Translations under genes and position numbers: made by a program | Shown: piece after piece, positions 13,856 through 26,083 of the stretch | Position numbering within the stretch: the stretch's first letter is position 1 | How the letters are laid out: every line of letters begins with the position of its first letter | The notes under the pieces: generated by a model | What the model was told of the DNA's origin: nothing | The model's input: the letters and a program-made list of their open reading frames with translations, nothing else | Databases searched by the model: none | DNA from: a virus | Virus record (IMG/VR): IMGVR_UViG_3300032287_000199 | Location: 1-30,771 of that record | Strand: one strand, 5' to 3' | Length of the DNA stretch: 30,771 bases

Positions 13856-14298
13856 GTGTTGAGCTCCTTTAGTTTGGCTTCAATGTAGTCAATGACCGCC
13901 TCAATGCCATCAGGTGCGTCTTGCATATATTTAGCCGTTAGTCTGTCTTCTGCCGCAAGCCCTACCCATGTGCGCTGTGGTGGGGTGGTGTAAAAAGCAG
14001 TGCCAACACCTTTTTCACATTCCCACCAAATTTTTCGTGGTCTTCCGTTAATGCGTTGACCTTCGCAAACATCTTCTTTAACCCACGCCACAGGCTCTTG
14101 CTCTGGCTGTGCATAAGCATCTTTATACAACCCAAGGCGCTCGTTCTCGCTGTGCAGTGCTTGCAATGTTTTTTCTTTTGCCAAGGCTTCTTTGATAGCG
14201 GTGATGGCTTTTTCTTGGCGTTCAGTTGAGCCTCTCCATTCGCCAAAATTAACATCTTCAATAAAATCAAGCGCCAGCTTCAGAACTTCTTGTGTCAT
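13852..14298 (-). CDS. Phage hypothetical protein with conserved TPPQRTWVGL motif
   Basis: 148 residues. N-terminal helices (LKLALDFIEDVNFGEW, then AITAIKEALAKEK) lead to a QPEQEPVAW linker, a short beta part, and TTPPQRTWVGLAAEDRL. From memory this combination (EAL...QPEQEPVAW...LYTTPPQRTWVGL) is a widespread marker of small accessory proteins in phages and prophages of Burkholderiales and relatives. Its role is unknown. The start overlaps the preceding stop (ATGA) and the stop overlaps a TTG start. Confidence 0.65.
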   Translation of the reverse strand: MTQEVLKLALDFIEDVNFGEWRGSTERQEKAITAIKEALAKEKTLQALHSENERLGLYKDAYAQPEQEPVAWVKEDVCEGQRINGRPRKIWWECEKGVGTAFYTTPPQRTWVGLAAEDRLTAKYMQDAPDGIEAVIDYIEAKLKELNT

Positions 14299-18763: not shown

Positions 18764-20836
18764 ATGCAAGCAGAACAAATAGCCAAGCAGCTCGGCAACG
18801 CGAAGAAAGCAAACGGTCAGTGGGTGGCGAGTTGCCCAGTACCGTCACACGGCAAAGGCAACGGCGACAAGAATCCATCTCTCTCCATCGACATCAATGA
18901 CGAGGGTAAGCCTTTATTCCATTGCCATGGTGGGTGCAGCCAAGAGGATGTCTTCCACACCATCAGGGCATTGCACTTGCTGCCGGAACTGGAAGAACGG
19001 CCAGACCCACTCGCCAACATCAAGCCGATACCGAAGGTGGAATTCCAACAGGAGTGGGTATACACCGATGAGAACCGTCAGCCGGTGTTCGTCAAGCAAA
19101 GGCTAAAGGTCGGCGCCACCGGCAAGACTTATAGGCTCTACAAGATTGACGAGGCAGGCAGAAAGCAAAGCTCACTCGCTGACGCACGCATAGTCCCCTA
19201 CAACTTACCGGCACTCTTGGACGCGAAGACAGCCGGACGCAACATCTTCTTGGTGGAGGGCGAGAAGGCCGCCGATGCCATCAAGTCAATTGGCATGATT
19301 GCCAGCACCGCGCATACTGGCGCAGGCAGTTGGCCTGCTGCCATCACCGAGTATTTCGCTGGCGCTCAAGTGATCATCCTGCCGGACAACGATGTACCTG
19401 GTTGGCAGTACGCGCACAAGGCAGCCGAGGCAATACTGCCCATCGCCAAAAGCCTAAAGGTAGTTGACCTCGGTCTGCAAGGCCAAGGCGATGATGCCTA
19501 CGAATTCATCGAAGAGGGCGCAGGCCGCGACAAGCTGGTGGCGCTAGTCAAGGCAGCGCCAATCATCACAACGGTGGATCAGGTAACAATGCCCGAAAGG
19601 TTAAACCCGATTAATAAGACAAGTATACAAAACGAGGAAATCTTTACAGATCAACTGGATCATGTACAGAAAACGGCAGAAATTGAACATGAGTTTGCGA
19701 CAGCGCCACCGAAAGAGCCAGCAAAGATTGGCAAGCAGATTGCCATTGAGCATTGGGACAGCATCCAAGACGAGCCGGTGAAGTGGCTGATCCACAGCGT
19801 GATTCCTGTGGGCGCGTTCACGGCACTCTACGGACCGCCAGGCTCATTCAAGTCGTTCATTGCCTTGGACATTGCCGAGGCCATCGCCACTGGCCGGCCG
19901 TGGATGGGCAATGAGGTATCAGAGCAGGGCGCTGTCTTATATATCTGTGGCGAGGGTTTCGGTGGTGTCGGTGCGCGGATCAAGGCGTGCAAGCAGCACA
20001 ACCAAACAGATGACGGTGCGCCAATTTATGTGATCAGACACCAATTAAACCTGAGAGCCAGCGTGGAGGACTTCAACGCGCTGATGATCGCCATCGAACT
20101 ACTGGTCATGGAAACCGGCATCAACTTCAAGATGATCATCATCGATACCTTGGCCAGAGCGTTTGGCGGTGGCAACGAGAACGACAGTGCCGACATGGGT
20201 GCGTTCATCACGGCCTGCGGACGCATCCAGCAGATCGTGCAGGACGCTGCCTTGATGATCCTGCACCACAGTGGCAAGGACGCGACCAAAGGACTGCGCG
20301 GCCATTCAAGCCTCTTAGGCGCAGTGGACACCGAACTGGAACTCCTGAGATTTGACGAGTCCATGAAGGGACTGATCACCATCAGCAAACAAAAAGATGG
20401 TCAGGACAACACGCGCATTGGATTTGAGATGGTCAGCATAGAACTTGAGTCGGCCAACGCATTGCACATTGGTGAACCAGTGACCAGCTTGGCGGTGCAG
20501 GCCAGCGAACTCGGAGCGTATGAGCAGGCCAAAAAGACCGGCAAAAGTAACTCAGGCAGCGGCAAAAATCAGCGCATGGAGTTGCACTGTCTGGAGACTG
20601 TGATCAAGAGCAATGGTGTACTAAAGTTTATTGAGGGTACTCAACGCAATGCGGTCAGTTTGGAGGCTTGGCGGCAGGAATTGTGGTCAAAGATGGGCTG
20701 CGATGAGGAGGATAAAAGCTCATTCAAGATGGCGTGGAAGAGGGCAAAAGAGCGTTTGCAGGACTCAGGACAAGGTGGAATTCGAGACGGTTATGTCTGG
20801 TTAGAGCCAAAAACAAACAACAAGGAAGAGTATTGA
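18764..20836 (+). CDS. Primase-helicase fusion (CHC2 zinc, TOPRIM, RepA-like ATPase)
   Basis: 690 residues. Zinc-binding head: Cys24, His29, Cys54, Cys58 (CPVPSH ... FHCHGGC). TOPRIM: FLVEGEKAADAI with Glu165, and IILPDNDVPG with Asp208 and Asp210. Then a RecA-fold ATPase of the RepA/AAA_25 type: Walker A GPPGSFKS (357-364), Walker B MIIIDTLARAFGGGNEND with Asp461, a sensor-like ILHHSGKD and LRGHSSLLGAVDTELEL. A C-terminal winged-helix-like tail follows. It should prime and unwind at the phage fork. The direct repeats just after its stop may be the site it works on. Confidence 0.88.
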   Translation: MQAEQIAKQLGNAKKANGQWVASCPVPSHGKGNGDKNPSLSIDINDEGKPLFHCHGGCSQEDVFHTIRALHLLPELEERPDPLANIKPIPKVEFQQEWVYTDENRQPVFVKQRLKVGATGKTYRLYKIDEAGRKQSSLADARIVPYNLPALLDAKTAGRNIFLVEGEKAADAIKSIGMIASTAHTGAGSWPAAITEYFAGAQVIILPDNDVPGWQYAHKAAEAILPIAKSLKVVDLGLQGQGDDAYEFIEEGAGRDKLVALVKAAPIITTVDQVTMPERLNPINKTSIQNEEIFTDQLDHVQKTAEIEHEFATAPPKEPAKIGKQIAIEHWDSIQDEPVKWLIHSVIPVGAFTALYGPPGSFKSFIALDIAEAIATGRPWMGNEVSEQGAVLYICGEGFGGVGARIKACKQHNQTDDGAPIYVIRHQLNLRASVEDFNALMIAIELLVMETGINFKMIIIDTLARAFGGGNENDSADMGAFITACGRIQQIVQDAALMILHHSGKDATKGLRGHSSLLGAVDTELELLRFDESMKGLITISKQKDGQDNTRIGFEMVSIELESANALHIGEPVTSLAVQASELGAYEQAKKTGKSNSGSGKNQRMELHCLETVIKSNGVLKFIEGTQRNAVSLEAWRQELWSKMGCDEEDKSSFKMAWKRAKERLQDSGQGGIRDGYVWLEPKTNNKEEY

Positions 20837-21744: not shown

Positions 21745-22176
21745 ATGGCAGGAAGACCGAAATTCAAGCAAGACATGGCGCTGCTTGAAGATTTGCCAGA
21801 TGACATGATCGTTTCGATGTTTGAGGCAGGCAAGTCGCAGACGCAGATTAGTTACGAACTTGGCATCGGGCGCAGGGCGCTTGAGCAATGGATCGAAGAT
21901 ACCGATCCCACTATAATTGCGCGTGCGCGCGCGAAAGCCGCCGATAAACTCGCGGTGGAGACTCTGGACATCGCTGACAGCATGGCCGACAGCAACCCGC
22001 AGCGCGATGTCCAGCGCATCCGGACGCGGCAATGGCTGGCCGAAAGGTGGGATCAGAAGACTTATGGCTTACAAAAAGCCGCTTCGGTCAACATCAACAT
22101 ACAGGATCTACGCATGGCGGCACTGCGCCATGTCGAGGTTGTCGATGACTTATCCACAGATAATCGCAATGGTTAA
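21745..22176 (+). CDS. terS: Terminase small subunit
   Basis: 143 residues. An N-terminal helix-turn-helix (DDMIVSMFEAGKSQTQISYELGIGRRALEQWIED) would recognise the packaging site. The middle and C-terminal helices have the signature of many phage TerS proteins: ARARAKAADKLAVETLDIADS, then RTRQWLAERWDQKTYG. A short tail follows. It pairs with the large subunit 306 bases downstream. The 3' end contains a perfect DnaA box (22150-22158). The gene order (TerS, gap, TerL, portal, scaffold, coat) is classic. Confidence 0.82.
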   Translation: MAGRPKFKQDMALLEDLPDDMIVSMFEAGKSQTQISYELGIGRRALEQWIEDTDPTIIARARAKAADKLAVETLDIADSMADSNPQRDVQRIRTRQWLAERWDQKTYGLQKAASVNINIQDLRMAALRHVEVVDDLSTDNRNG

Positions 22177-22343
22177 GCACATTGGCCTGTGCATAACTGC
22201 GAAGTGCCTGCAAAACAAGCAGAAACAGGCCAATTATCCACAATTGACTTAACATAATGGACATCGTGTTAAATGGATTATGTAAGCGTTTTGTAAGAAA
22301 GCATATAGATCAATGACTTACCGATATAGTGCCATGTGGATAA
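22150..22343. other. DnaA-box cluster, candidate replication origin
   Basis: Four perfect matches to TTATNCACA in 194 bases: TTATCCACA at 22150-22158 (+), TTATGCACA at 22188-22196 (-), TTATCCACA at 22234-22242 (+) and TTATCCACA at 22335-22343 (-). Between the last two lies an AT-rich stretch (22243-22330). The rest of the 306-base gap between TerS and TerL holds a 10-bp inverted repeat and a GC-rich dyad, and no gene. Confidence 0.65.
22181..22234. repeat. 10-bp inverted repeat between DnaA boxes
   Basis: ATTGGCCTGT at 22181-22190 and ACAGGCCAAT at 22225-22234, perfect, 34 bases apart, with a small inner CTGC/GCAG hairpin. One DnaA box overlaps the left arm and another begins at the right arm. 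Confidence 0.65.
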
Positions 22344-22397: not shown

Positions 22398-22428
22398 CGC
22401 CCCCCCCTTGCGCTTTGCGGCGGGGGCG
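22398..22428. other. GC-rich dyad with C8 run upstream of TerL
   Basis: CGCCCCC (22398-22404) pairs with GGGGGCG (22422-22428); eight C run from 22400 to 22407. There is no T-tract, so it is not a standard terminator. It could be part of the packaging site, often found in or beside terminase genes, or a barrier element. The C run also makes this a place to suspect sequencing error. Confidence 0.4.
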
Positions 22429-22482: not shown

Positions 22483-23955
22483 ATGACCCTACCCCCCACC
22501 CCCACTGCCGCAAAAAAGCGCGTCCCGAAAAAAAATTCTGATGATTTGCTGACGAATAACCCATTTGTCGAATTCGTCAAACTCTACAAGAATAATCCGG
22601 TGCTGTTTGTCAGAGAGGTGTTGAACACTGAGCCTGACCCATGGCAGGTGGAATTCTTGAATCACATCGCGTCCGGCAACAGACGCATATCGGTGCGAAG
22701 TGGTCACGGTGTGGGGAAGAGTACAGCGTCAGCGTGGGCGATGATCTGGTACTTGCTGCTGCGCTTTCCGGTGAAGGTGGTGGTGACAGCGCCGACAAGC
22801 AGCCAGTTGTATGACGCATTGTTTGCCGAGGTTAAGCGTTGGGTGAAGGTGCTGCCGCCGATGCTGGCTGATATGTTGGACGTAAAGCAGGACCGTATTG
22901 AGGTGATTGGCGCAAACGAAGAGGCGTTCATCTCAGCGCGTACATCTAGAGCCGAGCAGCCAGAGGCGTTGCAGGGGGTTCACAGTGATCATGTGATGCT
23001 GGTGGGGGATGAGGCCAGCGGTATTCCTGAGAAGGTGTTTGAGGCGGCATCTGGCTCGATGTCCGGCCACAACGCCGTCACGCTGTTATTGGGTAATCCG
23101 GTGCGTTCCAGCGGGTTCTTTTACGACACCCATAACCGATTGGCGGGAGATTGGGTGACTATGAAGGTGAGTTGCGCCGACTCGCCGAGGGTGAGTGAGG
23201 CGTACATCGAGGAGATGAAGTCGCGCTACGGTGAGGAGTCAAATGCCTACCGCATCCGCGTGCTGGGTGAGTTTCCGAAGTCTGACGAAGACACGGTCAT
23301 ACCGATGGAGTTGCTTGACTTGGCGATGAATCGGGATGTGGCGGCATCGCCTTACGCGCCACTGGTGTGGGGATTGGATGTGGCACGCTTTGGCTCGGAT
23401 CGCTCTGCACTGTGCAAAAGGCGTGGTAACGCGGTGACTGAGCCGATCAAGACTTGGAAAAACTTAGACTTGATGCAGTTGACCGGCGCGGTGGTGGCCG
23501 AGTTTGAGGCACTTGCACCGAATGACCGTCCGACAGAGATACTGGTGGACAGCATTGGACTTGGCGCCGGAGTGGTTGACCGGCTGCGGGAATTGAAGCT
23601 GCCAGCGCGGGGCATCAATGTCGCGGAGTCACCTGCCATGGGCGGCACTTACAGGAATCTGAAGGCCGAGCTTTGGTACAAGGCCAAGGCTTGGTTGGAG
23701 CAGCGGGATTGTCGGCTGCCAAAGGATGAGTTACTGGTGGCCGAGTTGGCGACTGTGCGTTATATGTTTACGAGCAACGGCAAGATTCAGATCGAGAGCA
23801 AAGACGAGATCAAGAAGCGTGGTTTAGCATCGCCAGACAAGGCTGATGCGTTTTGTTTGACGTTTGCATCTGATGCGGTGATCGGCATGATGGGGAGTAA
23901 GGCTGGCAACAACTGGGCGCAACCGTTGAAAAGAAACCTCTCAAGGGTTGCATAA
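22483..23955 (+). CDS. terL: Terminase large subunit
   Basis: 490 residues. ATPase: Walker A SGHGVGKST (73-81), Walker B VMLVGDEA with Asp176 and Glu177, coupling-like LLLGNPVRSSGFFYD. Nuclease, RNase-H-like: WGLDVARFGSDRSA with Asp299, ILVDSIGLGAGVVD with Asp356, and SPDKADAFCLTFA with Asp452/Asp455. It packs DNA into the prohead and cuts concatemers. The N-terminus is Thr/Pro-rich, coded by a C-rich stretch, and no ribosome site is visible before the ATG; an in-frame stop just upstream rules out an earlier start. Confidence 0.93.
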   Translation: MTLPPTPTAAKKRVPKKNSDDLLTNNPFVEFVKLYKNNPVLFVREVLNTEPDPWQVEFLNHIASGNRRISVRSGHGVGKSTASAWAMIWYLLLRFPVKVVVTAPTSSQLYDALFAEVKRWVKVLPPMLADMLDVKQDRIEVIGANEEAFISARTSRAEQPEALQGVHSDHVMLVGDEASGIPEKVFEAASGSMSGHNAVTLLLGNPVRSSGFFYDTHNRLAGDWVTMKVSCADSPRVSEAYIEEMKSRYGEESNAYRIRVLGEFPKSDEDTVIPMELLDLAMNRDVAASPYAPLVWGLDVARFGSDRSALCKRRGNAVTEPIKTWKNLDLMQLTGAVVAEFEALAPNDRPTEILVDSIGLGAGVVDRLRELKLPARGINVAESPAMGGTYRNLKAELWYKAKAWLEQRDCRLPKDELLVAELATVRYMFTSNGKIQIESKDEIKKRGLASPDKADAFCLTFASDAVIGMMGSKAGNNWAQPLKRNLSRVA

Positions 23956-24744: not shown

Positions 24745-24895
24745 GCCTGGTTTATACGCCAACATCAACGCGAAGCAAAAACGTATCGCCGCAGGCAGCG
24801 GCGAGAAGATGAACAAGGTTGGCTCTAAGGCTGCACCGTCTGCCGCCGACTTCAAGCTGGCGGCCAAGACCGCCAAGAAGAAGCCTAAGAAGTGA
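24734..24895 (+). CDS. 53-residue basic protein (KPGLYANI type)
   Basis: Starts MKTKPGLYANINAKQKRIAA, then GSGEKMNKVGSKAAPSAADF and a Lys/Ala-rich tail. From memory this KPGLYANIxxKxxRIxxGSGEKM sequence is a recurring small protein near the portal gene in many phages. It overlaps the previous gene by 11 bases and its stop overlaps a GTG start (GTGA). Probably DNA- or virion-associated. Confidence 0.65.
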   Translation: MKTKPGLYANINAKQKRIAAGSGEKMNKVGSKAAPSAADFKLAAKTAKKKPKK

Positions 24896-25590
24896 TCTCA
24901 CCGATATGCATCTCAACAGTACACGGCAAAGGTTTGCGGGTGATGCTCACAAGCATCGCCGAGTATTGTCCAGAAGTGCCTGTCTATTTGCGCGGTCCAG
25001 AGTCCATTATTGGCGGCTTTGACGCTGACCTTAAAGTGTTTGGTGCAGCGCACAATTTCGGTGACGACTACAACGAGATCATTGACAAAGCCTTTGCCGA
25101 TGGTTTTGAATCGGTGATCTGCGCCAACGATGACATCGTGCTGACTCCCAGCAGCTACCGGTTGCTGATGGAGGATGTGGCGCAGTTGAAGGCTGAAACC
25201 GGCGAGCCTGTGGGTTGGGTTTCAGCGCGGTGCGATGCGGCAAGGCCGGTGCAAAATATTCGCTCTAACCCCTTTGATCAGAAGCTGCACTACTTCAAGT
25301 ACCCATACGAGGACGCAATTGTGCCTATGGAATGCCCATCCCCTATCTTTGCATGGATCGGGCGCGATGCGTGGGAGGCTGCGAAGTTTCCACCGCTGAA
25401 CTGGTACTCGGATGATGTGCATTGCGAGGACTTGCGTGCCGCTGGCTTTCACCATTACCTGAGCAGATCGTATGTGCATCACATTGGCAGCCAGACTGTG
25501 GGCATGAACGGTGACGCACTGACCAAGGCCGCGATACCGTGGCTATTAAAAAACAGACCGGAATATGCAAAGCAGTGGTTTAACTCTTAA
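24892..25590 (+). CDS. Glycosyltransferase, GT-A/GT2-like
   Basis: 232 residues from a GTG coupled to the previous stop. Strand-helix start (ICISTVHGKGLRVMLTSIAEYC), then CANDDIVLTP with Asp80-Asp81 as the metal/nucleotide-sugar acidic pair, an Arg/Asn-rich acceptor-side region, SPIFAWIGRDAWE, and WYSDDVHCEDLRAAGF as the catalytic-acid region typical of GT2-like enzymes, with HHIGSQT near the end. No membrane segment, so it acts in the cytoplasm. It overlaps a methyltransferase gene by 26 bases, suggesting joint action on one product. Confidence 0.72.
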   Translation: MISPICISTVHGKGLRVMLTSIAEYCPEVPVYLRGPESIIGGFDADLKVFGAAHNFGDDYNEIIDKAFADGFESVICANDDIVLTPSSYRLLMEDVAQLKAETGEPVGWVSARCDAARPVQNIRSNPFDQKLHYFKYPYEDAIVPMECPSPIFAWIGRDAWEAAKFPPLNWYSDDVHCEDLRAAGFHHYLSRSYVHHIGSQTVGMNGDALTKAAIPWLLKNRPEYAKQWFNS

Positions 25591-26083
25591 TCTCGGTTCG
25601 GGCAAGGATCGCCGTGCCGATTGCGTGAATGCTGACATTCGCGCAGATGTTGGCGCTGATTGGGTGGTGGACATTGGTGCGCCAATGCAGATCGACCGAC
25701 AGTTTTCAAAGATCATCGCCAATGATGTGATTGAGCACATACCGAACTTAGTGCAGGCCATGACCAACTGCCGTGATTTGTTGGAGATGGGTGGCGAGAT
25801 GCACATTCATGTGCCGTATGACCTGAGTCATGGCGCGTGGCAAGACCCGACTCATGTGCGTGCATTCAATGAGAAGTCATGGGTGTATTACTGCGAGTGG
25901 GCGTGGTACTTGGGCTGGAAAGGTAGTCGGTTTGAGATGGAACATTTGCAAATGAGTCTCAGCAACTACGGTGCGAGCCTAGAATTACCGCAAGAAGAAA
26001 TACTGCGACTGCCGCGTGCAGTTGAGTCCATGTATGTGATTTTGAAGAAAGTACCCTATGAAAACACCGGCGTGGCAGCGTAG
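25565..26083 (+). CDS. SAM-dependent methyltransferase, class I
   Basis: 172 residues. Motif I LNLGSGKDRRADCVNADIR (SAM-binding Gly loop), a VDIGAPM strand, IIANDVIEHIPNL (motif with the NDVIEH helix) and GGEMHIHVPYDLSHGAW followed by DPTHVRAFNEKSW, all typical of small COG4627-like methyltransferases often found next to glycosyltransferases. The substrate is unknown; a sugar or glycan made with the upstream enzyme is the simplest reading. The stop overlaps the next gene. Confidence 0.75.
   Translation: MQSSGLTLNLGSGKDRRADCVNADIRADVGADWVVDIGAPMQIDRQFSKIIANDVIEHIPNLVQAMTNCRDLLEMGGEMHIHVPYDLSHGAWQDPTHVRAFNEKSWVYYCEWAWYLGWKGSRFEMEHLQMSLSNYGASLELPQEEILRLPRAVESMYVILKKVPYENTGVAA

Follow-up and report, generated by a model that had tools for sequence, protein, structure and literature searches.

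Gene context and features of the locus

The DNA analyzed here, a linear virus record 30,771 bases long that is hereafter called the window, represents a partial genome. Its small and large terminase genes, terS and terL, are separated by a gap of 306 bp. Three of four DnaA boxes (boxes 2-4) lie inside this gap and box 1 falls within the final codons of terS, while a dif-like element, a candidate core site for the Xer recombinases, sits between boxes 3 and 4 with an IHF-like site next. The features are:

18764-20836, plus strand: AAA_25 primase-helicase, a phage replication protein (PF13481 and primase/helicase PHROGs)
21745-22176, plus strand: terS, Sf6-like small terminase (PF20901, phrog_1482)
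22150-22158, plus strand: DnaA box 1, TTATCCACA, inside the 3' end of terS (54/54 distinct relatives, codons invariant)
22188-22196, minus strand: DnaA box 2, TTATGCACA (only TT[AG]T[CG]CACA variants in the 54 relatives)
22234-22242, plus strand: DnaA box 3, TTATCCACA (exact in 46/54 relatives)
22240-22319, no strand: AT-rich stretch from the composition profile, candidate unwinding region containing the dif-like core
22247-22274, minus strand: dif-like Xer core, ATTTAACACGA TGTCCA TTATGTTAAGT, 28 bp in an 11+6+11 layout (XerC-like arm 22264-22274, centre 22258-22263, XerD-like arm 22247-22257)
22308-22320, plus strand: IHF-like site GATCAATGACTTA, with 8/9 specified bases of WATCAANNNNTTR
22335-22343, minus strand: DnaA box 4, TTATCCACA (exact in 29/54 relatives)
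22398-22428, no strand: C-run and GC-rich inverted repeat before terL (present in most relatives)
22483-23955, plus strand: terL, large terminase (phrog_2)

Rfam and tRNA scans returned no match, and the absence of any sigma-70 promoter or terminator in the terS-terL gap leaves a plain promoter reading weak. The interval between terL and the portal gene (24892-26083) holds two genes (232 and 172 aa) apparently unrelated to packaging, which by eye resemble sugar- or methyltransferases.

A conserved cluster of DnaA boxes

The first-pass annotation had described four perfect DnaA boxes, two on each strand, within 194 bases over the end of terS and the gap, as the only such cluster in the window, with an AT-rich stretch between the third and fourth boxes, in a phage carrying its own primase-helicase; each of these observations holds. 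Exact TTATNCACA sites are found at 22150 (+), 22188 (-), 22234 (+) and 22335 (-), with a fifth at 14108 (-), i.e. 5 observed against 1.04 expected, a number reached by only one of 100 shuffled windows. The degenerate motif TTWTNCACA occurs 8 times in the whole window (2.9 expected), and neither motif forms a second cluster. The GC content falls to 30-32% at 22240-22319 from about 50% around it.

The array also proved to be conserved with fixed spacings. We collected 80 viral contigs sharing the TerL of the window, 68 of which have sequence upstream of terL. In these 68, TTWTNCACA occurs 237 times; the 39 kb upstream of terL account for 201 of the sites and the remaining 506 kb for 36, which amounts to 5.1 per kb versus 0.07 per kb, a difference of about 70-fold. 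Conservation of the individual boxes was counted over 54 distinct gap sequences. Box 3 lies 84 bp past box 1, or 95 bp in one subgroup. Box 1 corresponds to the terS codons TTA TCC ACA, which are invariant in 42 distinct terS segments, whereas in the same comparison synonymous changes occur at 28 of the 38 degenerate codons whose amino acid is constant, implying selection on the DNA itself. The IHF-like site is represented by ATCAA...CTT[AG] in 54/54 relatives, with the full consensus in most. The dif-like core is nearly invariant in the gap alignment; its terS-side arm, TTAACATAA, hardly changes, and its centre is variable.

Two further sequence features of the window may be recorded. The fifth exact box (14108-14116, minus strand, TTATGCACA) stands isolated among small minus-strand genes, and the relative G010 has a comparable isolated box. 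A perfect 10-bp inverted repeat, ATTGGCCTGT/ACAGGCCAAT, at 22181-22234 overlaps box 2 and touches box 3; it folds better than 200/200 shuffles, yet is poorly kept in relatives.

The dif-like core in close and distant relatives

The core, which the first-pass annotation had not noted, has in the window a XerD arm that matches well and a XerC arm that is degenerate, and it is the best dif match by a small margin only (15.5 of 19.5 vs 14.5), as scored with a consensus that recovers E. coli dif. Single-strand folding of the core is no better than that of shuffles. The 11+6+11 layout is supported by the comparison of relatives, and is weaker in the window taken alone.

We then considered two further sets of 80 contigs, gathered with the TerL of phage C72C1 and with that of a phage contig in an Opitutae MAG. 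Most of these about 160 distant loci with enough sequence have, in the corresponding gap and with unchanged orientation, a dif-like site clearer than that of the window, frequently with one perfect arm, namely TGTCGCATAA on the XerC side in the C72C1 group and TTATGTTAAAT on the XerD side in the group of the Opitutae contig. For most near-complete dif-bearing genomes that were scanned, the top dif match genome-wide falls in this gap. Comparison of 67 distinct sites shows largely constant inner arms and 30 different central hexamers. A large marine clade has the Xer core and no DnaA boxes, which shows that the Xer part is able to exist alone.

A scan for tandem DnaA boxes, run blind to dif, recovered a fourth clade (L432, L454, L487, L492, L493) in which the same TerL family is accompanied by at least 3 DnaA boxes, a canonical dif (AGTGCGTATAA CACCCA TTATGTTAAAT or a close variant of it) and IHF-like sites. 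In the neighborhood of tandem boxes, high-scoring dif matches were present in 6/98 contigs against 1/256 control stretches (p = 0.002); five of these six contigs belong to the fourth clade, so that the signal represents one lineage plus the contig L470.

No integrated copy or host junction at the core was seen among 129 loci with sequence upstream of it, and all but one of these share that sequence with other phage contigs. The one exception, L125, was rejected as a host junction, as its site had been wrongly picked and the real dif-like site is elsewhere. A TerL search for prophages in 286 genomes of the class of the Opitutae MAG yielded only the phage contig of that MAG and distant terminases, and the MAG has no dif match besides that of this contig. 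The GC skew of 11 near-complete relatives rises almost steadily around the genome and is uninformative at the site.

The composite occurs beside other terminases

A scan with the core pattern returned 80 loci, of which 55 fit the terS-terL context; among the 25 flagged, L363 and L366 resemble the usual context by sequence, leaving 23. Freshwater phages with unrelated or distant terminases are seen to bear the same composite. In one type (L306) TerL has no BLASTP similarity to that of the window and the site lies between a 208-aa gene and terS; in another (L361/L368) TerL is distant (31% identity) and the site lies between terS and terL. The early genes of both types are related to those of the window (primase-helicase 47-71%, exonuclease 51%, RuvC 53%). 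In these contigs the density of DnaA boxes close to the core is about 150 times that in the remaining sequence. Taking the core as reference, box 1 is found at either -99 or -110, and the IHF site is found either at +59 or at +69/70; these shifts of about 11 bp equal one helical turn, from which we infer that the parts belong to a single nucleoprotein complex.

The composite is thus not tied to the terminase genes, since it also accompanies an unrelated TerL and can lie on the opposite side of terS. The array that was earlier read as an origin inside the packaging module is not specific to that module. As a DNA query among named phages, the L306-type composite gave no convincing relative. In the Roseobacter phages CRP-831 and CRP-821 the early module is of the same type but the composite site is missing, so possession of that module is not enough to predict the site.

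The C-run and GC-rich repeat before terL are kept across the TerL family, and are also present at L088:315-357. In Sinorhizobium phage phiM5 the annotated terminal repeat ends 12 bp past the matching GC-rich repeat, a hint that this element perhaps lies near a packaging terminus. Contig ends were discarded as proof of genome termini, as they cluster near the start of terL and not at a single base. One full-length contig overlaps itself, with strain differences.

The dif-like site and encoded recombinases exclude each other

We examined 39 near-complete or large records, 33 with and 6 without a dif-like site. Tyrosine integrases (PF00589) are encoded by 4/6 dif-less records (G026, G027, MW202496 and phiM5) and 0/33 dif-bearing ones, and a serine recombinase (PF00239) only by MW202879, which is likewise dif-less (again 0/33). 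Hence 5/6 dif-less against 0/33 dif-bearing records encode a recombinase, with a chance probability of about 1e-5, although G026 and G027 are close relatives, which reduces these to about four independent cases, and several records are fragments, such that absence in any single one is no proof. A search of 14 contigs with other terminases found no tyrosine integrase either. One relative alone, MW202711 (W03; L090, L283), lacks both the dif-like site in the gap and a recombinase of the tyrosine or serine type.

Most dif-bearing genomes encode the AAA_25 primase-helicase; DNA polymerase A was not found in them, and they therefore probably use the host polymerase. The phage of the window likewise yielded no DNA polymerase A or recognised initiator. 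C72C1 combines a dif-like site with an HTH_36 initiator-like protein instead of the AAA_25 primase-helicase. G026, which carries an integrase, encodes an O-like initiator together with an S24-type repressor, and no S24 repressor was found in the dif-bearing genomes. Phage phiM5, described as temperate (PMC10386132), is also without S24, and its absence is therefore weak evidence on lifestyle. Plasmid-like maintenance or ParA-type genes (PF13614) were found in 0/44 records. In G044 (C1:24108-24634) the primase-helicase is split and has two in-frame TGA codons, reflecting either a pseudogene or a sequence error.

Functional implications

These comparisons make it very probable that the gap holds a conserved composite of predicted DnaA, IHF and Xer sites. 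Recombination by XerCD at the core is, judging from the sequence patterns, probable; for the DnaA part acting as a replication origin we see the case as evenly poised, and integration at the host dif is less likely than not. The reading we prefer, at even confidence, joins a putative origin to an Xer site that would replace the phage recombinase. Host DnaA and IHF would bend and melt the AT-rich core region so that phage replication begins at this point, after which the phage primase-helicase would take over. Host XerC and XerD, bound to the core, would substitute for a phage-encoded enzyme in recombining phage genomes, the candidate products being a circularised or monomeric phage genome, or integration at chromosomal dif. 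All this suggests that these phages borrow the origin and terminus machinery of the host instead of encoding their own. A more elaborate version, in which DnaA and Xer would form a single helically phased complex, the recombinase and initiator having been given up and the host origin and terminus mimicked, appears doubtful.

The alternative that survives best, though we consider it unlikely, is that of an Xer site with accessory proteins, wherein the core would be an attP or resolution site of an integrase-less phage, DnaA and IHF would be architectural and replication would start elsewhere. DnaA and IHF would then give the reaction its direction, as ArgR and PepA do at cer. This could account for the Xer core being more widespread than the DnaA boxes, for the fixed spacing with one-turn shifts and for the mutual exclusion with encoded recombinases. 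The use of accessory proteins has precedents in cer and psi (PMC5357621). Against it, tandem DnaA boxes within AT-rich DNA are in keeping with an origin, and an integrated copy was not seen at any of the 129 loci. We also know of no case of DnaA serving as an accessory factor in Xer recombination.

Conversely, a DnaA-dependent origin and nothing else, with the core as an unwinding region or phage-initiator site and its dif likeness accidental, is quite improbable. The DnaA boxes, the IHF-like site and the AT-rich core are all in its favor, as is the fact that the site travels with homologous early genes, but a canonical dif occupies the same place in other clades, even without DnaA boxes, and the exclusion with encoded recombinases also speaks against it. 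The first-pass annotation had proposed a host-DnaA-dependent origin: the conserved boxes, IHF-like site, AT-rich core and primase-helicase speak for it, but as the boxes are less widely conserved than the dif-like core, which the marine clade retains without them, a DnaA origin alone is insufficient.

In lambda cosB an IHF site lies between TerS sites, and the TTATCCACA repeats could by analogy be TerS-binding sites with an IHF bend in a cos or pac site, which would suit a position adjoining terS and terL with the annotated phiM5 terminal repeat ending nearby. We regard this as very improbable: boxes and core alike are also found next to an unrelated TerL and ahead of terS, the variation seen in the 9-mer is that of DnaA boxes, and relatives whose TerS and TerL are similar lack the 9-mer. 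Finally, titration of host DnaA, and perhaps XerCD, by the array so as to disturb the host cell cycle would explain why sequences resembling binding sites of the host origin and terminus systems occur together, but is hardly credible, as a sink needs neither fixed spacing nor one-turn shifts and would not exclude integrases.

Relationship to known systems

The preferred reading, of an origin combined with an Xer site, has partial precedents. Origins of the DnaA/IHF type include oriC, phage P1 oriR and plasmid pSC101, with which the present site shares DnaA boxes, an IHF-like site and an AT-rich stretch; it differs in having a dif-like site inside, and its origin role is predicted only. Use of Xer is known in filamentous and satellite vibriophages (PMC4246890), and is listed for microviruses and tailless phages. 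Like the integrating elements exploiting Xer (IMEX), the phages described here have a dif-like site of 28-29 bp, often with one degenerate arm, and no integrase of their own (PMC4246890). However, the filamentous and satellite phages have been shown to integrate at dif, whereas these phages are tailed, were seen in no integrated copy, and in some clades add DnaA and IHF sites. The plasmid sites cer and psi similarly place an Xer core beside sites for accessory host proteins (PMC5357621), but these are ArgR, PepA and ArcA, as against the DnaA boxes and IHF-like site here, where no ParA-type gene was found. Phage phiM5 has a related TerL (55%) and the C-run with the GC-rich repeat before terL, but differs in possessing a tyrosine integrase and DNA polymerase A and in lacking a dif-like site in the gap.

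Neither dif sites in tailed phages nor a DnaA/Xer composite was found in the open-access literature, subscription journals being mostly outside this search; every Xer-hijacker met in the literature searched is a filamentous, satellite, micro- or tailless phage. If large families of tailed aquatic phages do carry a dif-like site, the use of host recombinases would reach supposedly lytic, integrase-less phages, and the prediction of lifestyle from genomes would change. Host sites of both origin and terminus type joined within one small module would also make a link between DnaA and Xer directly testable. A second composite of origin- and terminus-like character was observed in an unrelated element, L470, part of a viral contig of 154,976 bases, which at about 180-400 contains a perfect dif-like site, GGTGCGCATAAGACATATTATGTTAAAT, together with five DnaA boxes and two additional partial dif-like sites.
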